From a virus, in the IMG/VR virus record IMGVR_UViG_3300045742_000007, positions 1-26,522 of that record: DNA of 26,522 bases. One strand, written 5' to 3'. Below, piece by piece: positions 3,768 through 21,543 of the stretch (positions within the stretch are counted from its first letter, which is position 1; every line of letters begins with the position of its first letter). The position numbers and the translations under genes were made by a program. A model generated the notes under the pieces. It was not told the origin of the DNA. It saw only the letters and a program-made list of their open reading frames with translations, and searched no databases.

Positions 3768-6700
3768 CTACGAAGACGTAGCGATTACACGCATCCATCC
3801 GCTATCGAGCGTCTGACTCCCACCTGTTTCGTTTTTGTACGCGAGGTTGACGAGGTTACTGGCGGTGATGTACGGGAACAGTTGCAAACCTTTAATGTTC
3901 TGGCCCGGACACACTCTTACTGAGTCACCGATACGAGCGCCCGATACTGAAATATTAGTGATTGTACCGCCCGCGCCGCCAGCTACTGTGCCGGGGTTGA
4001 ACGTGGTACTACCACAATATTCGTGGGACAGGATGGATTGAGCACCAAGCCTGATATACGGGCGTACGAGCTTTGTCGTATCAATGGCATTGTCCATCGC
4101 ACGGTTTCGGTTTGAAGTCCCTGTTTCTTGCACGAATGCGGTAACCACAGGGGATGCCGCTTGCCACCGGACGGAACACCCGACCACCGAGATTTCATTG
4201 CAATTTTCCAACAAAATAATCGGCTCGGCAATCGTGTTGGCGCAATCCGAGAACCTCGACCGGATACTGCCACCATAACACGACTTGAGATGGATGGCCG
4301 TACCTGTAGTGTTTTGGATGACGTCATCAATATCGAGGGCTTCTCCACCTTCGATATAGATTGAGGGTCCAGCACCCGCCGCGTTCAGAAGGTCACCATG
4401 AGAGTTGCCTTTGAAGTGGACACCAACGGCGTTCTTCAAGTAAGCGAACTTCCCATTCTGCTGGAAAGCCGTGCGGACATAGTGGTTGTCCGTGGCGGTC
4501 ACGTTGAATATCTCTTTGACACCATCCGCGTCACCATCGACACCGTAGATCAGGTAATCCAAACCAGCGTGTTCACAGTCGGACACGTGGACTGAGCGGC
4601 TGCGCCAGTTGGTAACGACGGTAGACCCGCCAAACAACTGAACACCATACCGCGAACCAGCGGCACCGTTGCCCGTGAAGGTTACACCCTCGATGCGAGT
4701 GTTGTTGCCACCCCCGAGGAGGACACCTGCCGCCTGCACAAAGATGTCGCCACCTGAGACCTTACAATCCCCGGCGTTATCCAGATAGATAGCAGCGCTT
4801 GTGCAGTTGATTTCGTTGTCCTTCCACAGGGAACCCGCGTCCCACTTGGCCTGCCACCCATACGTAAAGTCAAAGACCTTGCAGTTGGTGTATTTGTTGC
4901 GATACGACCATTCTGTCTCGACGAAAACCAAGGCGTTACCAGCGCCGTGAGCGTTCACACCAACCCACTCCATCCAGTACGGGGGTGTTGACACGAATGC
5001 CGTCGGGTTGCTGACTTTGAACATGGAGTTCATGCCTGCAACAGCAACAAACCGAGCGTTACCGGGGTTCTTGATGGTAAAACTTGGTGTGTTGGAGAAG
5101 TGGAGGGCCAGCAGTGCGCCACCATCGCTTGTCGCGGTGATATTACCCTTGTTACGGCTCTCCTGTGGGACCAGCGTGATGGTAGAACCAATGCCATAGT
5201 CCCGGTTAGTGGTGCCGACATCGATCTCACAGCCCCACTTGATTGCGTGGTTAAACATGCGCTGCAACTTGGAGGTCTCATCGGTGATACCCGAGGTGCC
5301 AACGATGTCCAAGTCGCCAACAGACACGACACCGAACGCCCCGAACATCGCCGGGGTAATCGAACGCGTGGCGGAGCTAAGTTTGAGCAGCACACCACCC
5401 GCCGTAGCCCGGTCATAATCCATCGAACCGAGCGACACGATTTGGAACACCGCACCGTTATCACGAATGTTGACGTAATTCCCCACCACAATACCAGCGT
5501 ATGTGAGGCTTGTGTCAGTTTCGATATCGGTGTTTGCATCCAACGTGTACAGATCGACCTCAGCCGCAGCGTCAGTGGCAATACCAGCCTGCGTAGTAGC
5601 GATACCCGCCTGCGTAGTGGCAATACCAGCTTGCGTAGTGGCCGTTGAGGCCGCCGTGGTTGCTGTTGAGGCCTGCGTAGTAGCGATACCAGCCTGCGTA
5701 GTGGCAATACCAGCCTGAGTGGTCGCCGTGGCGGCATTTGTGGTCGCAATACCAGCCTGCGTAGTGGCCGTAGTGGCCTCATCAGCGGCAATACCCGCCT
5801 GCGTGGTAGCAATGCCAGCTTGCGTGGTCGCCGTAGCAGCCTGCGTAGTGGCAATTCCAGCCTGAGTGGTGGCCGTAGTGGCATCCGTATCGGCTGACGT
5901 GGCCGCATCAGTTGCAATACCAGCCTGCGTAGTAGCAACACCGGCCTGCGTAGTGGCAATACCAGCCTGAGTGGTTGCTGTGGTTGCCTGTGTGGTGGCT
6001 GTAGAGGCCTGCGTAGTAGCGATACCAGCTTGCGTAGTTGCTGTGTCAGCCCCAGCAGTGGCAATACCGGCCTGCGTAGTGGCAATACCCGCCTGTGTGA
6101 CCGCCGTAGCAGCCTGCGTGGTCGCCGTAGTGGCCTGCGTAGTGGCCGTAGAAGCATGCACGGCTGCTGTTATCACATCAAGCTCTGTTTGGACCCTATC
6201 CGCAGCCGTTGCCACCGCATCAAGACCTGTTTGGACACGATCAGCGGCGGTCTGCGCGGCATCCGATGATGCACTGGCGGCACTCGACGCGGCCTCGGAG
6301 GCTTTTGTAGTGGCGATAGCAGCCTGAGCCGTGGCCACATCAGCGCTCGCTAAAGCCGAAGCTGCAGCCGCTTGGGATTGTACCGTACTCTCCCCGATGA
6401 TCCACTCCGATCCGGTCCAGTAGTAGAGGGCGTTCTCAATCGAGTTGTAGTATACGGCCCCAACCTGCAGCGCTTCACCATCACCATCCGTCAGTGGGTC
6501 CGTATCGAACGCACCCAGATAAAGCTTGGTGAACTCTTCGTTGGTATCAGTTGCCTCTTGGAGGGCAAACGTCAGGTACTCGGAGTTCTTGTTGAGGTTC
6601 TCCGAGGAGAGCGCAGCGCCCCCACCGAAGACAACTGCAGGGGTATCGATGGGTGTACGCCGGATGAATTCAACTTCTGCACCCACTGAGGGGGCCAAAC

Positions 6701-6887
6701 CATCGATGACGGTCTCGACACGGATGGTTGTGTCGTTCAACCAAGTGAATGTGTACGTAGCACCCACCGCCGTAGTCTCCACCCTGTCGACCCGAACGAC
6801 GACGTGGGTTCTGTCGAGGTAATCGAATGTTACCGCGAAGTCGGTGGTGGAGCCATTCCCGACGTAACTTTTAGATGAAAAGGCCAT
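3768..6887 (-). CDS. Tail fibre/spike: T7 gp17-like N-terminus, heptad rod, beta-helix-like end
   Basis: Residues 1-160 are the T7-fibre attachment domain (MAFSSKSYVGNGSTTDFAVT, then LSSENLNKNSEYLTFALQEA), which binds the tail nozzle. Residues 170-240 are Ala-rich; 244-440 are about 28 tandem seven-residue repeats of consensus ATTQAGI; from about 444 the sequence turns beta-rich, with SITPAMFGAFG, TDETSKLQRMFNHAI and repeated short strands such as GNNTRIEGVTFTGN, as in pectin-lyase-fold tailspikes. The total is 1039 aa against 553 for T7 gp17. It recognises the receptor and may degrade surface glycan, though no catalytic residues can be assigned. Ribosome site AAAAGGGA. Confidence 0.9.
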   Translation of the reverse strand: MAFSSKSYVGNGSTTDFAVTFDYLDRTHVVVRVDRVETTAVGATYTFTWLNDTTIRVETVIDGLAPSVGAEVEFIRRTPIDTPAVVFGGGAALSSENLNKNSEYLTFALQEATDTNEEFTKLYLGAFDTDPLTDGDGEALQVGAVYYNSIENALYYWTGSEWIIGESTVQSQAAAASALASADVATAQAAIATTKASEAASSAASASSDAAQTAADRVQTGLDAVATAADRVQTELDVITAAVHASTATTQATTATTQAATAVTQAGIATTQAGIATAGADTATTQAGIATTQASTATTQATTATTQAGIATTQAGVATTQAGIATDAATSADTDATTATTQAGIATTQAATATTQAGIATTQAGIAADEATTATTQAGIATTNAATATTQAGIATTQAGIATTQASTATTAASTATTQAGIATTQAGIATTQAGIATDAAAEVDLYTLDANTDIETDTSLTYAGIVVGNYVNIRDNGAVFQIVSLGSMDYDRATAGGVLLKLSSATRSITPAMFGAFGVVSVGDLDIVGTSGITDETSKLQRMFNHAIKWGCEIDVGTTNRDYGIGSTITLVPQESRNKGNITATSDGGALLALHFSNTPSFTIKNPGNARFVAVAGMNSMFKVSNPTAFVSTPPYWMEWVGVNAHGAGNALVFVETEWSYRNKYTNCKVFDFTYGWQAKWDAGSLWKDNEINCTSAAIYLDNAGDCKVSGGDIFVQAAGVLLGGGNNTRIEGVTFTGNGAAGSRYGVQLFGGSTVVTNWRSRSVHVSDCEHAGLDYLIYGVDGDADGVKEIFNVTATDNHYVRTAFQQNGKFAYLKNAVGVHFKGNSHGDLLNAAGAGPSIYIEGGEALDIDDVIQNTTGTAIHLKSCYGGSIRSRFSDCANTIAEPIILLENCNEISVVGCSVRWQAASPVVTAFVQETGTSNRNRAMDNAIDTTKLVRPYIRLGAQSILSHEYCGSTTFNPGTVAGGAGGTITNISVSGARIGDSVRVCPGQNIKGLQLFPYITASNLVNLAYKNETGGSQTLDSGWMRVIATSS
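5568..6158 (-). repeat. Tandem 21-base repeat coding for about 28 ATTQAGI heptads
   Basis: Degenerate in-frame 21-base units within the tail fibre gene. The strongest form is ATTQAGI; variants include ATTQAST, ATTQATT, ATTQAAT and ATDAATS. Synonymous codon differences between neighbours (GCC/GCT, ACC/ACT, ATT/ATC) show that the array is not a recent perfect duplication. Spurious long frames on both strands here are by-products of the repeat. Confidence 0.9.
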
Positions 6888-17325: not shown

Positions 17326-18273
17326 TTAGACTGCTTTACGCAACTCACGGATACCTTGCGGGTTAACCGCACCGTGACCGACAGCCATCTTGGAGAGCAT
17401 CAGTGTACCCTGACGACGGATGTCGTATTGGGATTCCGAAGCCATCTCCATGAGCTTCACGGTGGCCAGAGCACCGCGCTGGAAGACCAAAGCAGCAGTG
17501 TCCGAGGCGTCAACTTGGTACTTGGTACCGAAGTCAACAGTGTCCGAAGTGTGATCCACAGCGAGGTTGCTCGATTTCACAATCGACATACCAGCGACCT
17601 TCATGATCTCACCTTCGGAGTAGGAACCGTTGCCGTTACCGAAGTCACGATCCAGCAGTTTGTCGTTCTGCACGAAACCGTAGTAGGTTGCAGGCGACAC
17701 GATCACGAAGCGATCCGAGGCCGGGAGGAACAGGTCATCCATAGCAGCAGCCTCTGCGTACAGGGCGTCCACAATGGTCTGGATCGTTGGGGTCAGGCTG
17801 CCGAGGTTAGTCGATACAGCAGCGCCCTGAGCAGCGACAGCACCAGTCTCACCAGCACGGGCGGTTTTAACAGCCAGCGACAGGAGGTTGCGGTCGAACG
17901 TCTGAGCGAGAGCTTGGCCCATCTGGGTGCTATACTCAGAGCGAACCTCATAGTGGTTCTTGGCTTCATCGATATTGGCGATGAACGAGTCCGAGATCAG
18001 CAGATCATCAATGGTGACGATCTTCTCGCCGTGCTCAACGGTCTTACCGGTGATCTCAGCGCCCGGAGTGTGGTAGGACGCAGTGATGCGACCGATAGCC
18101 GGGAACGAAGCCGACTTACCCGAAGTGATGCTGCGGACGCGGGTCTTATCCGCCATGACCGTGTTTGCGTTGAACGAAGACAGTACTTCGCCCGAGAATA
18201 CTTTGAGGAACAGGGCGTCAGTAGCACCGGAGCCGTTGGCCTGACCGACGCGGGAAGGAGTAGCATTGGACAT
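17326..18273 (-). CDS. Major capsid protein, T7 gp10A-like
   Basis: HK97-fold shell protein that forms the icosahedral head. At 315 aa it is slightly shorter than T7 gp10A (345 aa). Typical features are the N-terminal ALFLKVFSGEVLSSFNANTV, the loop region SGKSASFPAIGRI, TVEHGEKIVTIDDLLISDSF at about residues 78-98, and the C-terminal QYDIRRQGTLMLSKMAVGHG. Ribosome site AAAGGA. There is no second frame extending past the stop, so the T7-style 10B frameshift product is not expected; a terminator begins seven bases downstream. Confidence 0.95.
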   Translation of the reverse strand: MSNATPSRVGQANGSGATDALFLKVFSGEVLSSFNANTVMADKTRVRSITSGKSASFPAIGRITASYHTPGAEITGKTVEHGEKIVTIDDLLISDSFIANIDEAKNHYEVRSEYSTQMGQALAQTFDRNLLSLAVKTARAGETGAVAAQGAAVSTNLGSLTPTIQTIVDALYAEAAAMDDLFLPASDRFVIVSPATYYGFVQNDKLLDRDFGNGNGSYSEGEIMKVAGMSIVKSSNLAVDHTSDTVDFGTKYQVDASDTAALVFQRGALATVKLMEMASESQYDIRRQGTLMLSKMAVGHGAVNPQGIRELRKAV

Positions 18274-18553
18274 CTTACGTGTCCTTTCTATTGTAGAGTG
18301 AAAGTTTTGGGGTTTGATGCGCAGGATGCGCGGGTTTCCCTCTTTGACTTCACGCCACGTCCCACAGGTTATCCTCCGCAGAGGGCCGTGCTTTCTCGTG
18401 TTGTTATTGTCTTTGGTGGGAGAGAGAGAAGGTGGTGACCGTCGTCACACACGACCTCAGAGAGGCACCTCGGGGTGCGCTTCAAGTCTTCACACGATCT
18501 CATTAAAGTGTGAGGGGCTTGCTAGGCGTGAGGTGTCCGTCAGAGGACGTGAT
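18274..18553 (-). promoter_or_regulatory. Long untranslated leader between tRNA and capsid gene
   Basis: About 280 bases without a credible gene. On the transcribed strand it holds the hairpins GTCGT-GTGTG-ACGAC (18441-18455) and CCTC-TCT-GAGG (18455-18465), a pyrimidine-rich stretch, and an AGAAAGGA ribosome site before the capsid ATG. No exact copy of the T3-like promoter is found. A segment at 18501-18525 resembles it but has extra bases in the core. Cutting at the tRNA 3' end would produce a discrete capsid mRNA with this leader. Confidence 0.5.
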
Positions 18554-18629
18554 TGGCTGTACCGGCAGGAGTCGAACCTGCAACCGTCCCATTAACAGTG
18601 GGAAGCTCTACCAGTTGAGCTACGGTACA
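18554..18629 (-). tRNA. tRNA-Asn (anticodon GUU)
   Basis: A complete 76-base cloverleaf with encoded CCA. Acceptor stem TGTACCG pairs with CGGTACA; the D stem is GCTC/GAGC; the anticodon stem TCCCA/TGGGA encloses the loop CTGTTAA, anticodon GTT; the T arm is GCAGG-TTCGACT-CCTGC; discriminator G then CCA. All stems pair perfectly by eye. It is in the same direction as the late genes and lies between the HNH and capsid genes, so it should be cut out of the late transcript. Confidence 0.96.
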
Positions 18630-18918: not shown

Positions 18919-19185
18919 TTACAGTTGGATTTCAGCCCAATCCTCAGCGAGGACGTCAGTTTGTGAAGCCAGCCAAGGCACGATCTTGCCGTCCGCTGTC
19001 TTCATATCGATATGAGGGCAGTACGTTACCGTGGTACCCTCACCCAGAATGGACAGCAGAGGTTCTCGGTTGACCACGAACTGGCTACCGTTCACGAGAA
19101 AGATAAACATCCCCTTCCCGTTCCAACCAGCGCGTTGTACTCGCTTGCCTTCTTTAAGTGCCTCTAGGGCTTTTCCAAAGTTCAT
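18919..19185 (-). CDS. Tad2-like (DUF2829) protein, probable anti-Thoeris signal sponge
   Basis: The whole 88-residue protein matches the DUF2829/Tad2 pattern: MNFGKALEALKEGKRVQRAG, then WNGKGMFIFL, REPLLSILGEG, PHIDMKTADGKIVPW, and ASQTDVLAEDW at the end. Tad2 proteins of other phages are tetramers that sequester gcADPR-type signals made by Thoeris ThsB, and some also bind CBASS nucleotides. Those activities are family knowledge, not shown here. The AAGGAA ribosome site is seven bases from ATG. It lies nine bases after the scaffold gene and is evidently co-transcribed with late genes, so any protein would appear after the phage promoter at 22002 is active. Confidence 0.88.
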   Translation of the reverse strand: MNFGKALEALKEGKRVQRAGWNGKGMFIFLVNGSQFVVNREPLLSILGEGTTVTYCPHIDMKTADGKIVPWLASQTDVLAEDWAEIQL

Positions 19186-19194
19186 CTTTGTTCC

Positions 19195-19983
19195 TTACAT
19201 GATGTTAGAGCGGCCCAGCTTGGCTTCGACCTTTGCTCGGAACGCCGGGTTCTTGGCGTACTCAGGGTTCTGCATGTCCTTCATCAGGTCAGCAGTACTT
19301 TCGTAGCGGGAGTTCCCTGAGGTGGACACGCGACCCTGTAGGTCACCTGTGGGGTCCACTCCGTTTGCCGTGTTGAACTTTGCAGCCAACTCAGCCACCG
19401 CCAGTTTGATCGCAGGGGTGTTACCGGTCTCGAGGACAGCGTTGAAGCTATCGATTTCAGCGTCGGAGAGTTCGTTAGAGGCCCATGTGACCATCTCGGT
19501 GTAGGTCTCAATGTTTCCACCCACCGGTGCCAGCATCTCAGCTTCCGTGGCCGCACGTTGCGACTCGATACCCTTGGCGTACATCTCGACCATCTCAGGT
19601 GAGATACCAACGGCCTCGAGGGCTTTGTAGTTGGCTTCCGAGAGTTTACCATCGGTTTCCCACTCGGTACTCAGGGCCTCCATATCAAGGCCAGCCTTCT
19701 CGACAGCCTTACCGGCTTCTTCGATCTCTTTGGCTTCGTCCTTCGGCTTCTCTTCGGGCTTTGGGGCCGACTTACCAGCCTCCAATTCCTTGTAAGCGGC
19801 GGCCATGTCTTCGGCGGTCTTGAACTTCTCAGGAAGCCACTCAGGGCGTTCTGGGGCGTCAACCTCGCCAGCCAACTTTGCGGTTGCCTTAACCTTAGCA
19901 GCCGCAGCCGCATCCTGTGCAGCCGCCTGCTCTTCGAGGGTCGGGTTATTTTCAGTAGATTTGATACTTACCGCTTCGACCAT
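19195..19983 (-). CDS. Capsid assembly scaffold protein, T7 gp9-like
   Basis: Scaffold guides prohead assembly and is removed before DNA packaging. The 262-residue protein is highly acidic and helical, with an Ala-rich N-terminal region (AAAQDAAAAAKVKATAKLAG), the family-typical RPEWLPEKFKTAEDMAAAY near residue 50, and a charged KPEEKPKDEAKEIEEAG segment. The basic C-terminal end (RAKVEAKLGRSNIM) likely contacts capsid protein, by analogy with T7. Ribosome site AAGGAG. In T7 the capsid gene follows directly; here a Tad2-like gene, an HNH gene and a tRNA intervene. Confidence 0.9.
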   Translation of the reverse strand: MVEAVSIKSTENNPTLEEQAAAQDAAAAAKVKATAKLAGEVDAPERPEWLPEKFKTAEDMAAAYKELEAGKSAPKPEEKPKDEAKEIEEAGKAVEKAGLDMEALSTEWETDGKLSEANYKALEAVGISPEMVEMYAKGIESQRAATEAEMLAPVGGNIETYTEMVTWASNELSDAEIDSFNAVLETGNTPAIKLAVAELAAKFNTANGVDPTGDLQGRVSTSGNSRYESTADLMKDMQNPEYAKNPAFRAKVEAKLGRSNIM

Positions 19984-19992
19984 GTGGTCTCC

Positions 19993-21543
19993 TTATTGGT
20001 TTACCATTGCCGCAGCAGCCTCTTTTGCGACAGCGGGTACAGCCCCTTTGGCCATATCCATCATCTGAGCTTGCTGGGCTTGTTGTTGAGTTCGGTCAGC
20101 CTCGTCTTTCTTCTGTTCTGCAGTCTTGATAAGACCAGTCAGATCAATTCCGAGTGCTGTACCAATACGGGTGATATAATCGCCTACGTTCATTTCGCTC
20201 TGCAGGACGTCAGGACCAAGAGGCGCAAGAGCGCGTAGGAACAGATCGTACTTACTGAGATCATGGCCACGACCAAGAGCTTCCAGCCCGGTGACAATGG
20301 TTGGCATTGCGACACCCTTGGGGAGTGTTGGGAGTTTCTTTGCCTTGGTGAGGCGGGAGATAACGCGGTTTACATATGGCAACTGATACTCTTGCGAAAG
20401 GATTGAATAAACCCCACCCAGAGCATCCTCGAGTTCCCCGGCCATATACCGGACTTCCTCGGCGGTGACACGTTCACCCTTGCGCTGGATCGCGCTGTTC
20501 ATCAGGAAGGCGTATGCGAGGCGTTCAACGATGATGCTAATCTGCTGTTGAGCTACCGACATATCCGCTTGTTTGTTAACCTGCAGCGCTTGGATATCTT
20601 CTGGCGATCCAGATACGGCTGCACCATTCTCTGCCTGCATGACGTCCTTTGCACGGGTTTGACCGTTAGGACGCACGAGGAAGACCATACGTGCTGCGAC
20701 AACTGCACCCTCAAGTACAGCCCGCGAGAGGCCCTCAAGGGAGATCAGGTCACCCAGATACTCCTCAACATAGGACCGGCCATAATCCTCACCATCAACT
20801 CGGGTCCACCTCAATGGTAGGATCGGTGACTTATCGAGGGGCCAACTTCCTTCGCTGTTCGGAACCCGCATACCCTTGATCTCTTGGTATGACTTGATCT
20901 GCTCACCCTCACGAGTGAACACCGTAAACAGATCAACCTCGGCCTTCGGGGCCACGTCATGGTCGTCAGGGTTTGCCCCACGGATCATCTCTTGGAGGTC
21001 GGTTGGTAGGGAGGCGAAGAACAACTCTTCTTTGATGATGGTTTCCACCATGTTGCCCATAGGATCACGCACGGTAACGTAGCGGTCCAGAGGGAACACG
21101 CGGGTCCCCTTATCCTTCGGGAGATACAACAGTACGTTTCCACCAACGATCAGGTGTTTCAGGGCCTCGAAGTGGGCCGACCGGTCACCGCTATTCTCGA
21201 TAGCCTGCATGACAGACCGCTCGTATTTCCCGAGGGCTTCATCAACCTTCGCACGTGCTCCGTCTTCTTGTGCCAGTTCCTGTGCAGCGAAGTCGTCTAC
21301 GCGCATGGCGAAGAACGGGGAGTTCGGCGGGAAGAGGGACAGGAGTAGCTTCGAGGCGAGGTTGTTGACCCCGCGAGCGCCCACACCTTGGTATGGGGTC
21401 GGAAAGTTGGAATGCTTACCAGCACCATCAGGACGGATTAGTGTTGGAATGGTGACCTTGCTACATTCCCGCGCCCGATGCAGGTAAACCTCACGTGTTT
21501 CGGTGAGGTGCTCATAGCGCGATTGTGCCGTGCCTGCGTTCAT
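19993..21543 (-). CDS. Portal (head-tail connector) protein, T7 gp8-like
   Basis: Forms the dodecameric portal ring through which DNA enters and leaves the head. At 516 aa it is close to T7 gp8 (536 aa). Characteristic stretches are ARECSKVTIPTLI near residue 30, FPTPYQGVGARGVNNLASKL around 50, LFPPNSPFF, and LIVGGNVLLY near 130. The C-terminus is Gln/Ala/Met-rich and probably helical, as in the barrel region of other portals. The ribosome site is AAAGGA eight bases before ATG. It is followed after nine bases by the scaffold gene, as in T7. Confidence 0.93.
   Translation of the reverse strand: MNAGTAQSRYEHLTETREVYLHRARECSKVTIPTLIRPDGAGKHSNFPTPYQGVGARGVNNLASKLLLSLFPPNSPFFAMRVDDFAAQELAQEDGARAKVDEALGKYERSVMQAIENSGDRSAHFEALKHLIVGGNVLLYLPKDKGTRVFPLDRYVTVRDPMGNMVETIIKEELFFASLPTDLQEMIRGANPDDHDVAPKAEVDLFTVFTREGEQIKSYQEIKGMRVPNSEGSWPLDKSPILPLRWTRVDGEDYGRSYVEEYLGDLISLEGLSRAVLEGAVVAARMVFLVRPNGQTRAKDVMQAENGAAVSGSPEDIQALQVNKQADMSVAQQQISIIVERLAYAFLMNSAIQRKGERVTAEEVRYMAGELEDALGGVYSILSQEYQLPYVNRVISRLTKAKKLPTLPKGVAMPTIVTGLEALGRGHDLSKYDLFLRALAPLGPDVLQSEMNVGDYITRIGTALGIDLTGLIKTAEQKKDEADRTQQQAQQAQMMDMAKGAVPAVAKEAAAAMVNQ

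Follow-up and report, generated by a model that had tools for sequence, protein, structure and literature searches.

What is a gene resembling tad2, which in other phages encodes a sponge for immune signals, doing among the head genes of a virus? The question is raised by the window analysed here, a 26,522-nucleotide stretch of viral DNA (IMG/VR record IMGVR_UViG_3300045742_000007). Since its capsid protein is 65-68% identical to those of Roseobacter phages CRP-403, CRP-118 and CRP-804, which are annotated as Autographiviridae, the window is a fragment of a T7-like (Autographiviridae) phage. The intact tad2 reading frame consists of 88 codons on the minus strand, with an ATG at 19185, while the plus-strand reading of the same interval is interrupted by stops. 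The gene and its surroundings are listed in Table 1.

Table 1. Features of the head block in the window.
Feature	Position	Strand	Basis
Portal / head-tail connector	19993..21543	-	PF12236 8.4e-88
Capsid scaffolding/assembly protein, immediately upstream of tad2	19195..19983	-	PF05396 6e-13; phrog_1052 1e-50
AAGGA, the Shine-Dalgarno site of tad2, sharing bases with the scaffold stop codon	19192..19196	-	direct sequence reading
tad2-like gene, 88 aa, VNR...HIDMKTADG-type Tad2/DUF2829	18919..19185	-	PF11195, PDB sequence matches, AlphaFold, Foldseek
HNH_3 protein, 77 aa	18674..18907	-	PF13392 8.3e-09; same site in many relatives
tRNA-Asn (GTT)	18554..18629	-	
CTCTGCGGAGGATAAC element ahead of the capsid gene, possibly forming a hairpin, kept in close relatives	18368..18383	-	
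Major capsid protein, T7 gp10A-like	17326..18273	-	PF21703 2.9e-62; 68% to Roseobacter phage CRP-403

Along the minus strand, genes are ordered as portal, scaffold, Tad2, HNH_3, tRNA-Asn, major capsid, and tail tubular A and B. The first-pass annotation gave the correct coordinates and rightly located the gene between scaffold and capsid, but tad2 is not alone there, as the HNH_3 gene and the tRNA-Asn share the interval. The scaffold stop codon is 9 nt from the tad2 start, and the tad2 stop codon is 11 nt from the start of the HNH_3 gene, which has another good ribosome-binding site. Because of these short gaps and ribosome-binding sites, tad2 is best described as the central one in a closely packed series of genes. 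Translation of scaffold and tad2 is likely coupled, judging from the AAGGA placed over the scaffold stop codon. A sigma-70 promoter scan of the 17-22.5 kb region yielded matches no commoner than in shuffled sequences and no separate tad2 promoter, for which a 9-nt gap leaves no space. Late transcription of tad2 would be expected from the T7-like gene order.

Two further features of the window were observed. Ahead of the capsid gene in the window (18368-18383, minus strand) and in loci L090-L105, the sequence CCTCTGCGGAGGATAAC hardly varies and may form a hairpin with a UNCG-type loop; in the more distant L106, L108 and L109, a hairpin is kept with an altered stem and is followed by AGGAYAAC. 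The element could be a phage promoter, a processing site or an mRNA stabiliser. CTCTGCGGAGGATAAC was also considered as a repeated phage promoter, which is unproven, as the element occurs once in the window. Outside the head block, the gene for a putative tail fibre of 1039 aa (3768-6887, minus strand) contains more than 20 tandem 21-nt units coding for ATTQAGI-like heptads.

The 88-residue protein matches Pfam family PF11195 (‘Thoeris anti-defense 2-like’; E 2.9e-29, 101.8 bits, cut-off 25), its residues 1-84 aligning to positions 1-71 of the 73-position profile. Sequence searches of the PDB returned Tad2/AcrIIA7 entries only, ModTad2 (82.6 bits) scoring above SptTad2 (69), SPO1 Tad2 (65) and HgmTad2 (64). 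Given the Pfam E-value and the match to seven distinct solved Tad2/AcrIIA7 sequences, a chance match is excluded; NCBIfam and PADLOC gave no Tad2 match for the protein. An AlphaFold model of the single chain, built from 47 homologues, has a mean pLDDT of 95.3, with values of at least 90 at 82 of the 88 residues. The best Foldseek match is 9eib, the structure of ModTad2 with His-ADPR (E 1.9e-10, TM 0.76-0.78), followed by other Tad2 structures (E < 1e-6) and, after a gap, by chance matches at E > 0.2. All 24 PDB chains with E < 0.001 are Tad2/AcrIIA7. The Tad2/DUF2829 membership proposed in the first-pass annotation is borne out by profile score, fold and conserved residues alike, and the model resembles known Tad2 structures, ModTad2 first. 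On sequence and model, we confidently identify the product as a Tad2/DUF2829 protein, a kind already known.

Some members of the family were originally catalogued as AcrIIA7, and the entries 8kbi and 9kzr, which bear that name, match the window protein. A function as an AcrIIA7-type anti-CRISPR is nonetheless highly improbable. The protein in question has also been solved as HgmTad2 with cADPR and cGG, which means that the activity demonstrated by structures is that of a sponge; in sequence, the window protein is closer to ModTad2 than to HgmTad2/AcrIIA7, and its link to AcrIIA7 is the common Pfam family only.

Residues W21, N22, G23, M26, W71, S74, Q75, D77, D82 and W83 are invariant in 47 relatives, and W21-N22-G23-K24 together with W71, S74, D77, D82 and W83 are common to the window protein and to ModTad2, SPO1, Spt and Hgm Tad2. 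A review (PMC12043709) locates the ligand pockets of Tad2 in two loops (b1-b2 and b3-b4), in strand b4, and in the final loop and helix. In the predicted model, the W21-N22-G23-K24 and SQTD segments seem to lie in corresponding places. A second conserved stretch, the middle segment F.VNR.PL..I..EGT...Y..HIDMKTADG.VVPW, unites the window protein with its relatives in IMG/VR; within it, F36, R40, P42, L43, Y55, H58 and D60 are invariant in 47 sequences, and V38 is also strongly conserved. These residues mostly differ in ModTad2, SPO1, Spt and Hgm Tad2. By its sequence, the window protein belongs to a distinct ‘VNR...HIDMKTADG’ Tad2 subgroup.

Comparison with solved proteins bears on the ligand. 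ModTad2, from a Myroides odoratus prophage (8v3e, 9eib), is the closest in both sequence and fold and, like the window protein, is a short form that lacks the long insertion and has the W-N-G-K and EDW motifs. In contrast, it is a prophage gene product, is 48% identical and is devoid of the VNR..PL and HIDM signature. SPO1 Tad2 (gp34.65; 8sme, 8smf, 8smg) is of the same fold, family and short form and has an identical SQTDVLAEDW, but comes from a Bacillus phage, is less similar and has a different middle segment. HgmTad2/AcrIIA7 and SptTad2 (8kbi, 8wjd) share the family and the WLASQTD motif with the window protein; they are, however, 13-16 residues longer and carry an insertion that has been linked to cyclic-dinucleotide binding (PMC12043709).

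Both Spt and Hgm Tad2 have been solved with cGG, and one sponge can take several signals (PMC12043709), so that the window protein might be imagined as a cyclic-dinucleotide sponge directed against CBASS. We consider this unlikely, as the insertion is missing from the window protein, which has 88 residues and a short loop as opposed to 101-104 residues, and as SPO1 Tad2, also a short form, showed no binding of 3'3'-cGAMP (PMC11722364). Reportedly, MoTad2 counters type II Thoeris by way of His-ADPR, whereas SPO1 Tad2 counters type I by way of gcADPR (PMC13299392). By analogy, our best guess is that the window protein binds an ADPR-type signal; binding of His-ADPR itself would be an extrapolation from ModTad2. 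The ligand may differ, because the closest solved relative is 48% identical and is devoid of most of the subgroup signature residues.

Whether the gene is an established part of the head block was assessed by surveying scaffold-capsid intervals in related phages. T7-like head blocks were gathered by capsid and portal searches and annotated with the proteins of the window and of other T7-like phages. Tad2 was found in one of 187 distinct intervals, that of the window; an HNH gene is present in 47, Roseobacter phages included. Neither three complete related Roseobacter phages nor five larger related contigs contained Tad2, and the tRNA-Asn (GTT) was absent from the 22 related loci scanned. Other cargo precedes the capsid gene in L091, L090 and L092, which carry differing extra genes. 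In L091 (900-3347) and L090 (105-1029), accessory genes lie between HNH and capsid and include a shared 92-aa protein (MAQNTT.AVPAKTWTLLTNSD); because of these genes, the scaffold-capsid interval looks like a cargo site. The lasting conservation of the 77-aa HNH_3 protein at one site is odd for a selfish nuclease.

The first-pass annotation had left room for a virion role, and a head-assembly accessory protein reusing the Tad2 fold would suit a gene tightly spaced between scaffold and capsid in the same operon. The survey speaks against it: conservation in the head blocks of relatives, as for a T7-like virion protein, was not found, the gene being absent from 186 of the intervals. Moreover, near relatives occupy unrelated positions and phages, and the conserved residues agree with those of nucleotide-sponge relatives. 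A virion role is therefore very unlikely. With no Tad2 in the 186 other intervals and HNH often present there, tad2 appears to be a recently gained, dispensable piece of cargo rather than a head protein.

In L010, an unrelated phage, the nearest relative of the window protein (86% identity) is encoded with a terminase gene on one side and a connector gene on the other, which points to horizontal transfer. Tad2 directly follows the capsid gene in IMG/VR loci L064 and L122 and in Klebsiella Drulisvirus phages, and is found among late structural genes in the Phimunavirus Momine. The Drulisvirus proteins (from phages KPPK108.1, KMI6, PWKp7 and myPSH1235) resemble that of the window in belonging to T7-like phages and in adjoining the capsid gene within the head block, but are encoded after that gene, fall into another Tad2 subgroup and are annotated as hypothetical or not at all. 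In a tree based on 86 columns, which is poorly resolved, the window protein and its counterparts in L064, Drulisvirus and Phimunavirus occupy different parts; separation of the T7-like cases in the tree suggests, with limited support, separate acquisitions. Tad2-like frames left unannotated in public records were noticed in Klebsiella phage myPSH1235 (L006 4001-4246) and Enterobacteria phage IME10 (L116 4001-4273). A broken Tad2-like gene lies upstream of an exonuclease gene in a T7-like contig (L142 1421-1865), where the match is split into two pieces, one with a stop, which suggests that Tad2 is lost when not needed.

The 71 nearest large genes upstream of the closest Tad2 relatives include two portal families (7 and 6 cases), head-tail adaptors (3), terminases (3), ribonucleotide reductases (4) and helicases (3), tallies that are approximate, since one gene may count in more than one category and some of those picked lie on the wrong strand (e.g., L064). 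Portal genes are thus among the commonest upstream neighbours. Other homologues lie beside replication genes, immediately before the N4 virion RNA polymerase gene, or near lysis genes or methyltransferases. The head-block position is less special than the first-pass annotation supposed: late or head placement of Tad2 is recurrent (Drulisvirus, L064, Phimunavirus, portal-adjacent IMG/VR relatives) without being a rule, given the genes found near DNA-metabolism or lysis functions, and the position in the window is uncommon but not unprecedented.

The first-pass annotation also suggested that the timing of the sponge is matched to its trigger, tad2 having been selected in the capsid block since the capsid protein triggers host Thoeris and both would appear together. 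Staphylococcal Thoeris is indeed activated by a major head protein (PMC12578639), and in the window, as in L064, Drulisvirus and several portal-adjacent relatives, Tad2 adjoins the capsid or portal block. However, a sponge expressed early would work too, any late insertion site would provide the same co-timing, and elsewhere Tad2 is found next to genes for ribonucleotide reductase, helicase, replication or lysis. The evidence for matched timing is one of position, and we regard such selection as improbable. Slightly less probable still is a broader proposal, in which the ‘VNR..PL...EGT...HIDMKTADG.VVPW’ subgroup would be a sponge of separate function that takes a TIR-derived ligand of its own, and repeated portal/capsid adjacency would match its expression to capsid-sensing immunity.

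The gene is most probably a functional Tad2-family sponge for immune signals, which a T7-like phage acquired horizontally and carries as dispensable cargo between scaffold and capsid. The analysis directly shows the family, the fold, the intact gene, the operon layout and the sporadic occurrence. We infer that scaffold and tad2 are probably transcribed together and translated together, and that the late-expressed tad2 product, a tetramer by family precedent, would capture an ADP-ribose-type signal that a TIR enzyme of the host produces, either gcADPR or, going by the closest relative, His-ADPR. With the signal sequestered, the Thoeris effector would stay inactive. Sponges work by stoichiometry, not catalysis (PMC12043709), and a late operon would supply abundant protein. 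For such stoichiometric action, a strongly expressed late operon would be a sensible home.

The locus provides a clear example of a putative anti-defence gene that a lytic T7-like phage carries as cargo within its late head operon, and indicates that counter-defence genes are not confined to early regions. The middle segment of the subgroup (F36, V38, R40, P42, L43, Y55, H58, D60) offers a concrete target for finding the ligand, and the recurrence of Tad2 beside capsid and portal genes makes it testable whether the timing of the sponge follows that of its trigger.
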